Source: Bacteriovorax sp. Seq25_V
Lineage (GTDB): Bacteria > Bdellovibrionota > Bacteriovoracia > Bacteriovoracales > Bacteriovoracaceae
Assembly: GCF_000447795.1 (NCBI RefSeq)
Contig: NZ_AUNI01000011.1
Coordinates: forward strand, 124,001 to 188,000
Length of the DNA stretch: 64,000 nucleotides
Direction: 5' to 3'
The position numbers were made by a program, and so were the translations under genes. Position 1 is the first letter of the stretch. The number at the start of each line of letters is the position of its first letter. The notes beneath the pieces were generated by a model. The model worked only from the letters and a program-made list of their open reading frames with translations. It was not told the origin of the DNA and ran no database searches. Below are positions 17,131-23,475 of the stretch, piece by piece.

Positions 17131-17646
17131 ATGGAAAATACTTTTTTTGATGAGTCCTTTTTAGAGAGACCTGTAAATCTTGATGAAGCGAAAAAAGAAT
17201 TAATCAATCTAAAACAACGACTTGAAAAAGAAAAAGACTCTTTACGAATAATAGAAATAAATTTAGATATTGGTCGGGTTTCTCGAGTATTAAACCTTTT
17301 AGAAGATGCTGAAAATAGTCTTCTTTGTGCTCATGAAGAAGCGAAAAAGTATAAGTATGCAGATATTTTCTTTAGCTCTGCTAAAGAACTTGGCATTCTA
17401 TATTGTATTCAAAAGCGTTATACTAAGAGTGATGATTATCTATCAAAGTGTGTGAAAATTTCTTCTAAAGCAAAACAGTATAAGGATCAATTGGCCAAGG
17501 TTTTTTTATATTTGGCCATCAGCAAGAAAGATCAAAGGCAGTCAAGCTACGCAACAGAATATACTCAAAACGCCATCGAACTCTCTATCGAAATGGGGAA
17601 GCTCGATTTACTCGAAGTATGTAAGAGGTTTCTTCACTCTATTTAA
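17131..17646 (+). CDS. TPR-like helical protein
   Basis: The 171-residue cytoplasmic protein consists of helix pairs in the tetratricopeptide style, for example GRVSRVLNLLEDAENSLLCA and IQKRYTKSDDYLSKCV. No signal peptide is present. It follows pyrD by 2 bases and closes the dnaE operon. TPR proteins are adaptors, so no specific role can be given. Its stop shares the palindrome TTAA with the stop of the convergent gene. Confidence 0.6.
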   Translation: MENTFFDESFLERPVNLDEAKKELINLKQRLEKEKDSLRIIEINLDIGRVSRVLNLLEDAENSLLCAHEEAKKYKYADIFFSSAKELGILYCIQKRYTKSDDYLSKCVKISSKAKQYKDQLAKVFLYLAISKKDQRQSSYATEYTQNAIELSIEMGKLDLLEVCKRFLHSI

Positions 17647-18548
17647 TTACAGATCGTTTTGTATGTTATGGAAGCACCTTTGTTTTTTTTAAGGTTAACA
17701 TTGAAAGCATTGATGATTTTATCGCTTTTTTCTGAGCAAATACTATCAAAAGCTTTTTTAGCTTCTTCTTTATCTATATCTAGATATTCGATTTTTTCGA
17801 TAATTTCAATCTTGGTATATCCACTTGCATTCTTTAATTCACTATTTAGACTCGATAGAAAAGTATCCCGAAGGTACGGGTCTTGCTTTGTGACCTCATC
17901 AAGCATGGCATAGAAAGTTCCTTTAACCTCTTCTTGAATATTATTAGAAAAATTAAAAAGTTTTACGATATCAGCTTGCTCTTGATATCTATTGAGATAA
18001 AGCTTAAGTGCATTCTCTTGTACAAAATTATTTTGGCTTTTGAATATTGTTTCAAAATCAAGGTCATCAATATTATAGTCAAAAATATTGGACTCTGTAG
18101 AAACTAAGTAGAGAAGTTTTAAATTTCTAGCTAAAACCTTATCGGCAACAGTATTTTTAGGATCAAAATAGCCGTCTTTATCAGCGGACATAGAGCAAAA
18201 GTCTGTAAGGCAGTCAGTGATTTGTTTAATCAACTCTTTGGCGTTTGAATAGATTGAAGTGGGAGCTTGTTTTGCAAAGAATTCTTCTTCTGATTTAGAA
18301 AAATCGATTACTTCGTCAAAATATACTGATTCGGACATTTCTTTCTTTATTGAAGCCTTGAGACTTGTAATATCACTTTTATTCGGAGCTGGAGTGAGGT
18401 CGGGTTCTGCTAATTTTTTCGTTGTTTCAATTTTTTCTTCTTTAGAAGGTTGTTCAACAATCTCCTTATTATCTTTATTTTTTTGTAAGTAAATAATTGA
18501 ACCAATTATTAAAATGATTACCAGAACTGATGTGATTTTCTTGTTCAT
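17643..18548 (-). CDS. Membrane-anchored helical protein with D-C-x4-C motif
   Basis: The start at 18548 gives 301 residues with an N-terminal transmembrane anchor (about 5-20), a Lys/Glu/Pro-rich linker to about 60, and an all-helical periplasmic domain. That domain contains DCLTDFC (Cys113, Cys118) and two later cysteines near the C-terminus. The protein at 21893 has the same layout and the motif DCYTSDC, so I regard them as paralogs. The gene lies 70 bases downstream of the lysozyme-like gene at 18619 and likely works with it. An ATG at 18560 is the alternative start. Function unknown. Confidence 0.6.
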   Translation of the reverse strand: MNKKITSVLVIILIIGSIIYLQKNKDNKEIVEQPSKEEKIETTKKLAEPDLTPAPNKSDITSLKASIKKEMSESVYFDEVIDFSKSEEEFFAKQAPTSIYSNAKELIKQITDCLTDFCSMSADKDGYFDPKNTVADKVLARNLKLLYLVSTESNIFDYNIDDLDFETIFKSQNNFVQENALKLYLNRYQEQADIVKLFNFSNNIQEEVKGTFYAMLDEVTKQDPYLRDTFLSSLNSELKNASGYTKIEIIEKIEYLDIDKEEAKKAFDSICSEKSDKIINAFNVNLKKNKGASITYKTICN

Positions 18549-18560
18549 ATTACCGTCCAT

Positions 18561-18583
18561 AATGGAAGTTTGTAACCTCCATT
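18561..18583 (-). promoter_or_regulatory. Hairpin covering a ribosome-binding site
   Basis: Two 10-base arms, differing at one position that still forms a G-U pair in RNA, flank a 3-base loop just upstream of the anchored-protein gene. On the coding strand the 5' arm contains GGAGG, the strongest SD in the gap. Folding would hide it. A DNA operator is the alternative reading. Confidence 0.4.
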
Positions 18584-18618
18584 ATGATCGGAATATTATT
18601 GCTTTTCAAGTGAAAGAC

Positions 18619-19932
18619 TTAAGATTTTAATATAGCCTGTACTTTTGAGTGCGTTTTGCCATCAGCATTACCTTCGTTGAAATTATTGATAATTTCATCG
18701 ATTGCATCTTTAACTTCTTTTGAAGTCTCAAATGAAATACTATCTGTGTATCCAACACTCTTCTTGTCTAGGAATCCGTTAACTTTTTCAAGATTGTTTT
18801 TGAAGTGAAAGTCTGGATGTCTTTTAATCATTTTGATTTCATTTTCAAGTTGTGTCACTTTCTCTTGATACTTTTGTTTCTTACTGCGACTTGAGACGAA
18901 CCTAATTTTTCTCGTTAGTTTAGAAGATTCCTTCTCCAGCTCTGCCAGCTTATTAATATCATCGATACGACATGATTTTGATACCTGGCCTTGGTTGTAC
19001 TTTCCTGACCATGTCGCGCGAATAAGCTTGTTTAGGTCTACTTTTCCGCCAGTCATAACACATGACATCGCCTTTTTAGAGTTTGTACTATCGTAATAGA
19101 GCTTTTTAAATCCAGCATGAATAAAATTTAATCCGTAATCAAATGTTTTATCAATTGATTCGTAGTACTTTTTACCAATGAAATTATCAAAGTGCCATCT
19201 CAGTGATAGTTGAACTGGACCTATATCTGTCCCATCTCCACCTCGGATAATTTGTCTAATAATTTGATCTTCTTTTACGTCGCTACATTCAACAATAAAC
19301 GGATTTTCTCCGCCTTTAAGATATTTTTTGAAGTGCCTGTAGTTCGATGGACTTTCTGTATTGGCTATAGACTCTTTCTTTTCTTGCAACTTAATATGTG
19401 TATAGTCATCAACAAGAATATTTCTAAGCTTTTCGAAATTTTCAATGTCACTTTCTTTTAAGATTTCAAGCTGTCTTTTTTCTTCTTCACTAGCAAATTC
19501 AGACTCTAGATTTACCTGAACATTCTCAAAGATTTTCTTCTTTGTTTGTTGGAACATGATATCACCAGAATTGGCAGGTTCATAACAAAGTCCTTTCTCA
19601 TCTTTTGTTTCACGGAAACTCATATAGAGACCTTCATGGAGAGGGAAGGTTAGAGAGAGCATCATAAAAGCATTATAAGCTTCATGATCACCATACTCGA
19701 GATACTTCTTTGCAATTTTATGGGCCGAAGTAATCAGTGACTTCATATATTCAGTTCCATAACTATTTCGTTCAGCTTCTGTATTTACCCAAATAGGAGC
19801 CTGTAGGTCGACATTTCTGTTAACCGTATAAAACATCTTATCCATCCACTTCACACGCGCAGGTGCTTCGCTTGCTTGCGCCATGTTTACAAGTAAAATT
19901 GTGGAAAGTATTGCCGATCTTAATGGTCTCAT
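18619..19932 (-). CDS. Secreted lysozyme-like protein, divergent cassette A
   Basis: The ATG at 19932 follows GGAG by 6 bases and opens a signal peptide ending near MAQA; the mature protein is about 417 residues. It shares ordered motifs with the protein encoded at 20088: a His-Glu site (HEGLYMS, Glu100), DIGPVQ-x4-RWHF at 236-248, MSCV at 289-292, KYNQG at 311-315 and a CR pair at 321-322. In lytic transglycosylases the corresponding elements are the catalytic Glu, the GxxQ motif and the AYN-G motif. Activity on peptidoglycan is therefore likely but the glutamate is shifted by one residue relative to its paralog. A coiled coil fills about 325-375. Confidence 0.55.
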   Translation of the reverse strand: MRPLRSAILSTILLVNMAQASEAPARVKWMDKMFYTVNRNVDLQAPIWVNTEAERNSYGTEYMKSLITSAHKIAKKYLEYGDHEAYNAFMMLSLTFPLHEGLYMSFRETKDEKGLCYEPANSGDIMFQQTKKKIFENVQVNLESEFASEEEKRQLEILKESDIENFEKLRNILVDDYTHIKLQEKKESIANTESPSNYRHFKKYLKGGENPFIVECSDVKEDQIIRQIIRGGDGTDIGPVQLSLRWHFDNFIGKKYYESIDKTFDYGLNFIHAGFKKLYYDSTNSKKAMSCVMTGGKVDLNKLIRATWSGKYNQGQVSKSCRIDDINKLAELEKESSKLTRKIRFVSSRSKKQKYQEKVTQLENEIKMIKRHPDFHFKNNLEKVNGFLDKKSVGYTDSISFETSKEVKDAIDEIINNFNEGNADGKTHSKVQAILKS

Positions 19933-20087
19933 TTTCTTCTCCAAATAAAATGAATTTTTAGCAAAATACCTTAGTTTTTAACGCTTTGCATTAAAAACAG
20001 GGCTTCGTGTAATAAATACCTGACCTAAGTGCTCGTTTTTACTTTTATTTTTCTAAGATAGGTCGCTTAAATGTCGATATAGTGGGC

Positions 20088-21884
20088 ATGAAGAAAATAC
20101 TACTACCACTATTTGTAATGTTTATTTGTAATCAATCTTTTGCTCAGAATAAGACTCCTGACTATTGGAAATGTAATAACAAATCCGGTGGATCGTGGAA
20201 TTTTGGTAGAGCACCTAGTGTCTGTGATGTTGATCAATTTATAGATCCCGGATATGTCAGTGCGGAGTACGGCCCTGCTATCTTTGATGATGCTAAAGAA
20301 GTTACAGAAGAGCGTGCTCGTTATATGTCAGAGGTTTACGGTCTTATCAAAGATACTGCCCGCTACTATATTGAATCTCGTAAACCAGATGTTAGTGAAG
20401 AAGAGGTTCAACAATTCATTCATGCTGCTTATGCGATTGGACATCAAGAAAGTTACTGGAGTCACTATAGAATACCGTCTAATAGAAGATACCAGTATAT
20501 GAGAGGTGATTATGGGCATGGACATGGAATGTTTCAGGTCGATGATCGCTGGCACTTTACGGCAATCAATCAAGGCCGTGGTGCAAATTTAATTCTCAAC
20601 ATGATTTACTCTCTTGAGGAATACTACGATGCTTGGCAAAGAGCACCTTCTATGAGCTGTGTTAATGGTGAAGCAGATTGGAGGGCCAGAGCGAGAGCTG
20701 CTTATAGTGCTTACAATGGCGGAGCTTCAAGAATTTGTCGTTTCACGAATCCAAAAGATAAGTGGGCACGAAACGACGAGGGATTTAGATTAAAATACGA
20801 TGATCGATCATGGGAGAGGTATGTTGATGACCTCGATCGTGAAGGTTATTTAAATATTGAGTGTGCTTTTAATGAAGGTGAAAACTGTAAAAAAGGTGAA
20901 AATAGTGTTCTTCCGCGTGAACATATTATTTATCGTTCTTCAAAATATGGGTCATGTGTTTATAAGAAAGATTCTGAAGAATTCTTTTGTTCGACAGCTA
21001 ATGAATCTTGCTTGTTTACGAAGGTAAATGGAGCCGATTCAACATCATATGCTGTTGGTGTTTTTAAAGATATCTGGGATGAGTTTCAAGTTTCTGAAGT
21101 TAGTAAAGAGGGGATCTGTTCTGAGATTGATGGTCTTTATTCGAGAGGTGCAAAAGTTGAAGTTCTAAAGAATATTAATGTGAGAAAAACTCCTGCAGGT
21201 GAAAAAATTGGTGTTATTAATAGTGGCTCGGTTACTCAAGTCATTGGTCTTGATATCTCTCATCCAATTACCCAGGATCGCTACTATAAAATTGTGTTTG
21301 GAAAGAGTGTTGGTTACATCTTTGCTGGAAGTAAAAGCGATTATGCTGCCTGGGCCAAGATTTCTCAAAAAGCATTTTCTTATCAATTGTTTGCAACTGC
21401 TGGGCAATACGTTAAGGCAAGTGATGGACATAAGTCAGTTGATGATCAACAAGTTGAACTCGAAGAGGGGAAATCATATCTAGTACTAGATGTTCACATT
21501 GATGGAGAAGCGTTAGTTTATAAACTTGAAGCTGATGGGATTGAGGCAACATTCTATGCGGGGAATTTAGAAGCAGAAAATACGTCTGACTTCTTTACTC
21601 TATCTGAAAAGCCAAGTGACAGTAATGGGGATGATGATGAAGTTAAAGATCCTGTTCCTCCTGCTCAACCAAAAGTGAGATATGGACGTTTAAGTAAAAG
21701 TATTTGGTGGAAGAAGACTTACTCTTGTCCTGCAACGTCATGTTCGAAAGGACCAACATTTAAAGGTCCAAAACTAACAAGTAGTAAGCTTGAGATCAAA
21801 GAAGAGAAGTACGGTTGGTATAAAGCAACTCAAAAGGGTAAGACGGGTTGGATTCAATCGAAGTATGTTTATCTATTTAACTAG
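20088..21884 (+). CDS. Secreted lysozyme-like protein with SH3 domains, divergent cassette B
   Basis: The ATG at 20088 (a GTG at 20082 is less likely) opens a signal peptide ending at about SFAQ; the protein has 598 residues. The catalytic-type domain, about 75-270, has GHQES with Glu121, GHGMFQ with Gln150, RWHF at 154-157, MSCV at 189-192 and AYSAYNGG at 205-212, all in lytic-transglycosylase order. A bacterial SH3 domain lies near 350-415 (KNINVRKTPAGEKIG) and a second SH3-like segment ends the protein (GWYKATQKGKTGWIQ). Such domains bind cell wall. Remodelling of own or prey peptidoglycan is the inferred role. Confidence 0.68.
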   Translation: MKKILLPLFVMFICNQSFAQNKTPDYWKCNNKSGGSWNFGRAPSVCDVDQFIDPGYVSAEYGPAIFDDAKEVTEERARYMSEVYGLIKDTARYYIESRKPDVSEEEVQQFIHAAYAIGHQESYWSHYRIPSNRRYQYMRGDYGHGHGMFQVDDRWHFTAINQGRGANLILNMIYSLEEYYDAWQRAPSMSCVNGEADWRARARAAYSAYNGGASRICRFTNPKDKWARNDEGFRLKYDDRSWERYVDDLDREGYLNIECAFNEGENCKKGENSVLPREHIIYRSSKYGSCVYKKDSEEFFCSTANESCLFTKVNGADSTSYAVGVFKDIWDEFQVSEVSKEGICSEIDGLYSRGAKVEVLKNINVRKTPAGEKIGVINSGSVTQVIGLDISHPITQDRYYKIVFGKSVGYIFAGSKSDYAAWAKISQKAFSYQLFATAGQYVKASDGHKSVDDQQVELEEGKSYLVLDVHIDGEALVYKLEADGIEATFYAGNLEAENTSDFFTLSEKPSDSNGDDDEVKDPVPPAQPKVRYGRLSKSIWWKKTYSCPATSCSKGPTFKGPKLTSSKLEIKEEKYGWYKATQKGKTGWIQSKYVYLFN

Positions 21885-21892
21885 GGATATGA

Positions 21893-22651
21893 ATGAATAA
21901 AGTAACGTATGGATTAGTTTTATTTTCCGCTGTTGTTGGATATATGTTTTTCTTTCCTGGTTCGAAGGAGTCAGTTGGTAGTCTTTTAGACTACAGAAAT
22001 CCTTACTCTCGAAAACCAGCAAGTTTATCAGCTCCACAAGAAGTTGTCGAAACTGAAAGTGTCGATAAGACAAAACTTCAGATTAAACTCTCAAAGCTTT
22101 ATACACTGAAGGACTGTTATACAAGTGATTGTGATATTGCAAGTAATGATGCCAGAGAGTATGAATTAACAATTGGTTCAAAACTCAAAAAAGAGCTTCT
22201 ATCTTTTTATGAAGAAGTGCTAAAAAGTGGTAAAGTTTCGTCTGAAATTGAAGATGTTGCTTTAGAGTTTCTTGCAATAAATGATGGTCACGTTAAAGAA
22301 GCAGCCCTTCTTCTCCTAAGTACACAACCACCAACTCAAGTCGCACTAAATGGCATCATTGATAATGTTCTTGATTATCATGATCCAAATCTTATTGGTC
22401 TTGCTCTGATTGAGTTAGAAAAATACAAGAGTGAAGAATACAATCTGCAAATAAAAGAAAGCTTTGTGAGAAATTTCAGAGAGGGAAGCTTACTTGTAAA
22501 AGAAGCTCTCGCAAAAGGAATCTATAAGTTTGTTAACCATGAAAGTAGATCTCAATATGAGAATATTCTCAACAATCTTCCAAAAAATTCGAGAGTAAGG
22601 AAAAATCTAAAGGCTTCCTTGGAAAGATATGATTATCGCTCAAAACTATAA
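21893..22651 (+). CDS. Membrane-anchored helical protein with D-C-x4-C motif
   Basis: The 252-residue protein starts with a transmembrane anchor (about 5-21), then a Ser/Pro-rich linker, then DCYTSDC (Cys75, Cys80) and an all-helical, HEAT-like region. The layout repeats that of the protein at 17643. It begins 8 bases after the SH3/lysozyme-like gene, so the two are an operon. The two cysteines could form a disulfide in the periplasm. The 3' end overlaps sfsA by 6 bases. Confidence 0.6.
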   Translation: MNKVTYGLVLFSAVVGYMFFFPGSKESVGSLLDYRNPYSRKPASLSAPQEVVETESVDKTKLQIKLSKLYTLKDCYTSDCDIASNDAREYELTIGSKLKKELLSFYEEVLKSGKVSSEIEDVALEFLAINDGHVKEAALLLLSTQPPTQVALNGIIDNVLDYHDPNLIGLALIELEKYKSEEYNLQIKESFVRNFREGSLLVKEALAKGIYKFVNHESRSQYENILNNLPKNSRVRKNLKASLERYDYRSKL

Positions 22652-23380
22652 TTCATAAGGTATAGCAGTGTCGACCTTAACTTCTTTGGGAGTCACACTG
22701 CATCGATATACCAGTATCTCAACACCAATCTCTTTTGCTTCTTTTAATAGTCTTGCATACTCTGGATCAATTTCCTTGGCAGGTTTAAACCTTGAAACAT
22801 CCTCGCGTTGGATAATATAAAGCATGCAGGCTCGTTCTCCACCTTTAACAATTTCCATCAGTTCGTTTAGATGCTTTTGTCCACGTTCAGTTACTGCATC
22901 TGGAAATGTTGCAAGATCCGATTCACTCTTCATTGAAACATTCTTAACTTCAACGAAGCATCTATTAGTCATTTCTTCATTATCAGCTTGATCATAGAGC
23001 AGGATATCGATTCGACTTTTTCCAATTTTATATTCAGGTTTAAGCTTATCAAATCCCTGAAGCTCTTTTATTTTTCCATTCTCGATGGCTTCAATGGCCA
23101 GAGAATTTGTGACACTTGTATTTACTCCAATTAGAGATGAACCATTATTTGTGAGTTCAAGGCTGTATTTTAATTTTCTCTTAGGATTATCGTGAAAGCT
23201 AATAAGAGCGTTCCAGCCAGGTTCAAGACACGTCTTCATACTACCCGTGTTCGCAGTGTGAATAGTGATAACATCATCCTTCTTGTGTTCTAAATGATCC
23301 TGTTCGAGTATCGCATCAACTAAGAAACGTTTATACCTTTTTATCACTTTTACTTTAATCAGTTCATTTTCAAATTTCAT
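22646..23380 (-). CDS. sfsA: SfsA-family protein
   Basis: The ATG at 23380 gives 244 residues (a TTG at 23386 adds two). The protein matches SfsA across its length: an OB-like N-terminus, the conserved HTANTGSMKTCLEPG near 45-60, and a restriction-endonuclease-like core with KIGKSRIDILLYD and VEVKNVSMK. SfsA is named for a sugar fermentation phenotype in E. coli; structure suggests a DNA-binding nuclease-like fold, and its true role is unsettled. It stands alone with no operon partner. Confidence 0.92.
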   Translation of the reverse strand: MKFENELIKVKVIKRYKRFLVDAILEQDHLEHKKDDVITIHTANTGSMKTCLEPGWNALISFHDNPKRKLKYSLELTNNGSSLIGVNTSVTNSLAIEAIENGKIKELQGFDKLKPEYKIGKSRIDILLYDQADNEEMTNRCFVEVKNVSMKSESDLATFPDAVTERGQKHLNELMEIVKGGERACMLYIIQREDVSRFKPAKEIDPEYARLLKEAKEIGVEILVYRCSVTPKEVKVDTAIPYEL

Positions 23381-23475
23381 ATTCAAAGATTACTAAAAAA
23401 CTCGGTGAATTTCTAGTAATCATCCTTAAAAATCAACCGATTAGTGTTAATATATAGGTTGTGGAGAATTAATTA

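Follow-up and report, generated by a model that had tools for sequence, protein, structure and literature searches.

A 64,000-nucleotide stretch of the genome of Bacteriovorax sp. Seq25_V (contig NZ_AUNI01000011.1, positions 124,001 to 188,000; hereafter the window) carries two enzyme-partner cassettes, each consisting of a gene for an exported lysozyme-like enzyme (E1 or E2) followed by a gene for a protein with a predicted membrane anchor and a helical domain (P1 or P2, respectively). It is well supported that such cassettes duplicate and move as units, and there is about an even chance that the partner is a periplasmic self-protection (i.e. immunity-type) factor for its cognate wall-cutting enzyme. 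A preliminary description of the same DNA had reported two divergent two-gene units, and all four open reading frames (ORFs) were indeed found at that place, with E1 and then P1 on the minus strand, E2 and then P2 on the plus strand, and 137 bp between the two enzyme starts. The enzyme comes first in each pair, and the gaps from enzyme to partner are 58 bp (E1-P1) and 8 bp (E2-P2).

Fifty loci were read, and their ORFs were called with a profile for each of the four proteins. In 51 out of 51 cases (40 E1, 11 E2) the enzyme gene is directly followed, on the same strand, by the gene of its cognate partner; the median gap is 8 bp, and in 14 of the 51 the gap is zero or negative. These pairs cover the Bacteriovoracaceae and one genome of family f11. 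When the search was widened to the phylum, E2 turned up in families f6, f11, f17 and f21, with P2 next to it in 8/8 added genes, so that the co-occurrence across related genomes that the preliminary description proposed to map amounts to 59/59 E1 or E2 genes with the partner adjacent, from five or more Bdellovibrionota families (the 59 pairs not being independent events). E1 followed by P2, or E2 followed by P1, never occurs among them. The E1 and P1 trees agree as well (Mantel r 0.73, reached by 0 of 5000 permutations, with a contribution from shared species history), and, more tellingly, in both trees the second cassettes of two genomes (G015 and G097) cluster with each other and not with the first cassettes of their own genomes. 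The divergent layout of the window recurs in four other genomes (Table 1), while in G033 the pairs are convergent (E1 P1 facing P2 E2). Because the pairing is invariant, the trees match and the pairs recur in another layout, the cassette is best seen as a unit that was duplicated before the families spread. The earlier claim that the enzyme-partner pairs were duplicated as a unit therefore holds, given the homology of both the enzymes and the partners, their identical gene order, the unbroken pairing and cassettes that move together.

Both enzymes start with a signal-peptide-like sequence, which in E1 (listed with a TTG start) runs from the next Met. The relationship of the two through ordered motifs, as noticed earlier, is borne out by BLASTP (6e-5 across the RWHF...SCV...YN-x-G...CR stretch) and by profile-profile comparison (98%, 2.3e-13), in which the Glu of HEG in E1 is aligned with the Glu of HQES in E2; these two results rule out chance likeness. 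When the E2-type catalytic core is compared as a profile with the PDB, the best six matches are goose-type lysozymes (8.3e-4 to 0.019), with c-type lysozymes next, and goose lysozyme also ranks first for the full-length E2 profile (0.0041). E123, D143 and D154 of E2, which correspond to the goose-type Glu and two Asp, are all invariant, and the D143-D154 spacing of 11 is that of the aligned goose lysozyme, the catalytic positions of which are 73, 86 and 97 (order and spacing being taken from the alignments). Since the profile matches agree with residues kept at goose-type spacing, the prediction for E2 is that of a goose-type hydrolase, presumably with muramidase activity. The motif order of lytic transglycosylases that had been recognised in the preliminary description is hereby narrowed, for E2, to the goose-type lysozyme branch of glycoside hydrolase family 23 (GH23), to which E1 is linked only via its homology to E2. 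E1 keeps the Glu and the hairpin Asp (at least 90% conserved) and has Ser or Asn where goose lysozyme has its last Asp (Asp97); these residues would suit a glycosidase whose second acid is altered, or else a lytic transglycosylase. In its AlphaFold2 model (pLDDT 90.4, pTM 0.85), Glu104 is predicted to lie at the end of a helix and to be followed by a hairpin and helices, an order of elements as in lysozymes.

No Pfam enzyme family is attained by E1 or E2. Pfam SLT is matched by three out of eight E2 relatives at 0.03 or worse and by one stand-alone relative at 0.0012, all under the cut-off, while SH3_3 is matched by E2 in two stretches (5.9e-8). Within the window the SH3 domains are indeed confined to one enzyme, as had been observed, but the difference in target that was read into this is weakened, because SH3 comes and goes in the E1 family (5/22 members have it). 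In some E1 homologues (L076:7888-9345 and L077:8528-9943 with LTSC, L079:5489-6832 with LVSC) a lipobox takes the place of the plain signal peptide that can be cleaved off, and the enzyme would therefore remain membrane-bound in those species. The second cassettes mentioned above are divergent E1-P1 cassettes with a much longer enzyme (836 and 713 aa; L080:5465-8829 in G015 and L136 in G097), both in genomes of one genus.

The partners are far less alike at first sight: BLASTP of P1 against P2 gives 0.8, covers the transmembrane (TM) part only and reveals no detectable likeness. Profile comparison with HHalign, however, matches them at 95% (3.5e-8), rising to 97% (2.6e-10) with 20 P2 sequences, and aligns their C-x4-C cysteines. 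With P1 against E1 as a control reaching 0.4%, chance likeness of the partners is ruled out too, so that the profile comparison suggested earlier finds homology in each case. The D-C-x4-C motif by which the partners had been recognised stands in part, in that a C-x4/5-C is near invariant in the family and the D before the first Cys is unconserved; in P1, C275 and C304 are likewise invariant (23 sequences). The AlphaFold2 model of P1 (pLDDT 87.9, pTM 0.78) has a low-confidence linker at about residues 30-60 after the TM helix and then an all-helical domain, for which the best VIA-align rows are HEAT/ARM solenoids (Z about 9-11.5, rmsd mostly 4-6 Å). As helical repeats reach such scores without kinship, HEAT/ARM is to be taken as a fold class and not as ancestry; one P1 relative matches Pfam HEAT_2 at 0.011. 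The predicted class is that of binding scaffolds. Because the cysteines are conserved and the cognate enzyme is exported, the helical domain of P1 and P2 is probably periplasmic. Pfam gave no ankyrin match, either for P1 and P2 or for the 23 and 9 members that were scanned, and matches to 'Enkurin', 'Colicin_immun' and 'DUF6366' were discarded, being far under the cut-off and in one member only.

Table 1. Features of the two cassettes, with positions in the window.
Feature	Position	Strand	Basis or remark
P1, 305-aa partner of E1: TM helix at the N-terminus, then a disordered linker and an all-helical domain, HEAT/ARM-like and predicted periplasmic	17643..18560	-	ORF, model
P1 C-x4-C, C117-LTDF-C122	18195..18212	-	C117 invariant, C122 >90% in 23 sequences
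P1 TM helix, residues 6-29	18474..18545	-	model helix H6-29; strongly hydrophobic sequence
E1, exported lysozyme-like enzyme, 441 aa	18619..19944	-	ORF, homology to E2, AlphaFold2 model
E1 beta-hairpin D237-G-T-D240-I-G-P-V-Q245-L-S247	19204..19236	-	D237, D240, Q245 at least 90% conserved; aligned with E2
E1 predicted catalytic Glu104 (HEG), C-terminal end of helix 87-105	19633..19635	-	invariant in 22 sequences; model
Divergent intergenic region, E1 start to E2 start	19945..20081		137 bp; same divergent layout in G001, G004, G118, G120
E2, exported goose-type-lysozyme-like enzyme, C-terminal SH3 domains, 600 aa	20082..21884	+	ORF, SH3_3, profile match
E2 catalytic core	20304..20843	+	alignments of E2 relatives
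E2 invariant E123, D143, D154	20448-20450, 20508-20510, 20541-20543	+	alignments of E2 relatives
P2, 252-aa partner of E2: TM helix at the N-terminus and a predicted helical domain	21893..22651	+	ORF, homology to P1
P2 C-x4-C, C75-YTSD-C80	22115..22132	+	C75 19/20, C80 18/20

An E1-profile match is present in ~37 of 100 genomes of the family (a few of these matches being E2 cores), with P1 matches in step, and ~9 of 100 carry E2 with P2; the genomes were sampled at one per species and are partly metagenome-assembled, so that an absence may equal missing sequence. The window genome itself is 99.97% complete (3.45 Mb). The same genes occur in named relatives, namely in Bacteriovorax sp. DB6_IX and MedPE-SWde, in Halobacteriovorax marinus and in further Bacteriovoracaceae, i.e. 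in kin of cultured bacterial predators, and the window organism may itself prey. In the window, a DHODH-like gene and a small TPR-like ORF adjoin the four-gene block at one end and sfsA adjoins it at the other. This DHODH-sfsA site (17131-23386) is a hot spot of presence and absence: within the window's genus, and between flanks that do not change, the complete block occurs in three species, G002 (L124) is empty and G003 (L103) has P2 only. Halobacteriovorax-like genomes have either both pairs or E1-P1 alone at a site on the sfsA side. Conservation of the promoter region is weak in the three genomes compared. A phage or mobile origin was rejected, with no E1 kin in viral contigs and no P1 kin in phage records (PHROGs gave E1 and E2 weak matches only, of unknown function), as was a role in anti-phage defence, since PADLOC matched none of the four proteins.

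Partners without an enzyme occur four times (P2 in G003; P1 in G031, G041 and G106), and enzymes without a partner were not found among the E1 and E2 genes checked. The orphan of G003 sits between DHODH and SfsA, where its genus relatives hold four genes, and G106 has a complete E1-P1 pair elsewhere in addition to its orphan P1. The orphans of G003, G031 and G041 retain the TM helix and the cysteine pattern; tblastn of the orphan loci found no enzyme remnants near them, and G003 and G031 have no E1 or E2 match anywhere in their genomes. As to their surroundings, the orphan P1 of G031 (L102:5881-6990) lies close to an L25-like gene of the kind that adjoins the full E1-P1 cassette in G042, while that of G041 (L083:5279-6190) has a lexA-like gene on one side and an acyl-CoA-ligase-like gene on the other.

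Self-protection is favoured because the partner is never missing beside E1 or E2, yet is able to persist without an enzyme; four orphan partners against no orphan enzymes is the asymmetry that immunity predicts. If the partner is such a factor, the enzyme would be exported by Sec via its signal peptide into the predator periplasm, while the partner would be tethered in the predator inner membrane, with its solenoid domain hanging on a flexible linker. The solenoid would bind the cognate enzyme, keeping the predator's own wall uncut until the enzyme departs for the prey, upon which the partner would remain behind as an immunity factor, perhaps one that also blocks the same enzyme when it comes from sister cells. 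In this scheme it is the binding, the inhibition, the muramidase activity and the prey as target that we infer. A broader version, in which the partners constitute an unnamed, phylum-wide family of inner-membrane-tethered, HEAT-like lysozyme immunity proteins whose orphans defend against rival predators sharing the prey cell, seems rather doubtful.

Several observations weigh against self-protection. An anchored, enzyme-adjacent protein with a linker and a helical domain has equally the layout of type II secretion foldases (PMC4713064). The orphan P2 of G003 has 25% identity to the window P2, versus 52% for the neighbouring SfsA, and being far more diverged than the adjoining gene it is possibly decaying instead of kept. 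Moreover, distant lysozyme-like lipoproteins (L104-L106, with a core of about 200 aa, and L168, with 326 aa) have no partner, from which it follows that the pairing rule covers the E1 and E2 families and not the whole fold, which itself demands no partner. Finally, of the fold comparison proposed in the preliminary description, which was run for P1 and E1, only the P1 part gave a fold class, as the E1 model found no lysozyme match in the PDB and the viral library (Foldseek, VIA-align). This search was uninformative, apparently because long helical insertions dominated the match lists; these insertions (about residues 122-209 and 333-374) are shared by the window's genus and are absent from compact E1 homologues. 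The partnerless core relatives (L104:4187-6034, L105:759-1376, L106:8793-9404 and L168:4248-5228) belong to other Bdellovibrionota families, those of L104-L106 adjoin an RND efflux operon, and they are possible housekeeping ancestors.

As a real but lesser possibility, the partner could be a foldase or secretion chaperone, anchored in the membrane, specific to its substrate and comparable to Lif/LipB or CpaB; it would fold a disulphide-rich enzyme in the periplasm and pass it on to the type II secretion system. The window genome encodes the type II secretin GspD (476.6 bits, above the family cut-off), several Cys are invariant in the enzymes and in P1, absolute pairing would suit an enzyme incapable of folding alone, and the partners have the adjacency, the N-terminal TM helix and the C-terminal domain on the presumed periplasmic side that are the first three features by which such chaperones are defined (PMC4713064). 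It is the orphans that are difficult to reconcile with a foldase, as all four lack a client at their locus, two of them at sites where relatives hold the cassette, and as two entire genomes (G003 and G031) lack an E1 or E2 match. Besides, P1 is predicted to resemble a compact HEAT/ARM solenoid and the related lipoproteins do without a partner, while the lack of a Lif or CpaB match in Pfam or among the fold matches listed is weak evidence, since absence proves nothing.

It is quite improbable that the partner serves as a dock or activator in the membrane, retaining the enzyme at the predator's envelope to remodel the predator's own wall (during growth, septation or exit) and not to attack prey, even though a membrane anchor, a linker and a predicted binding-type solenoid would fit such a role and the lipobox-bearing E1 homologues (L076, L077 and L079) would suit an enzyme that is retained at the predator surface. 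Docking for wall growth is disfavoured because the patchy spread (~37/100 for E1 and ~9 for E2, with the site full, partial or empty in one genus) differs from that of a core wall-growth factor, and the orphan partners would be without a role.

How invasive predators avoid cutting their own wall has been explained in only a few cases (Bd3460 and marking by deacetylation), and cassettes that are intact in at least five Bdellovibrionota families supply enzyme-partner pairs that are ready for testing. With self-protection as the preferred reading, 'predator versus predator' protection can be tested directly on the orphan partners; were the partners foldases instead, they would represent a novel class of chaperone dedicated to lysozymes. 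Beyond SH3, none of the four proteins has a named family in Pfam or NCBIfam, and no account of them was found in the literature searched; a pangenome study lists predator-specific wall enzymes (PMC11656739). An enzyme with a self-protection or chaperone partner is of a known type, of which this enzyme branch and this partner family are unlisted members.

Among known enzymes, the goose-type lysozymes (GH23) share with E2 the Glu-Asp-Asp order, the Asp-Asp spacing of 11 and the Y-N-x-G motif, but the E2 match is modest (8e-4 to 0.02) and E1 has Ser or Asn at the last Asp; unlike them, E1 and E2 are bacterial and cysteine-rich, have SH3 or helical additions and stay under the Pfam SLT cut-offs. 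DslA (Bd0314) of Bdellovibrio bacteriovorus, which has relatives in that species, is a predator lysozyme with a GH23-like fold and its second acid at the goose-type position, which is transcribed alone, without flanking genes, and for which prey is told from self by deacetylation of the prey wall (PMC7511926). It belongs to the same broad fold group and is absent from the profile matches listed for E1 and E2; a partner plays no part in its discrimination of prey from self. Chaperones of the type II secretion system are defined by adjacency, an N-terminal TM helix, a periplasmic C-terminal domain and a requirement for secretion (PMC4713064). Lif/LipB and CpaB have, like P1 and P2, an N-terminal TM helix, a domain in the periplasm (its presumed side in P1 and P2) and a gene beside that of one secreted enzyme, but their clients are a lipase and a protease, and they have no sequence or listed fold match to P1 or P2. 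In Tse3-Tsi3 of Pseudomonas aeruginosa, an SLT-fold muramidase effector is blocked by a periplasmic immunity protein that is encoded with it as a pair (PMC3792639), with the difference that delivery is by type VI secretion and that Tsi3 has a beta-sandwich fold instead of a helical solenoid. The closest functional analogue is Bd3460, an ankyrin solenoid whose gene directly follows that of a secreted endopeptidase; it is retained in the periplasm, inhibits the secreted DD-endopeptidases Bd3459 and Bd0816 and is essential against self-rounding (PMC4686830). It is likewise a periplasmic solenoid repeat protein encoded right after a secreted wall enzyme, but it is an exported ankyrin, whereas P1 and P2 have a predicted membrane anchor and a predicted HEAT/ARM-like domain, and the enzymes beside them resemble glycosidases.

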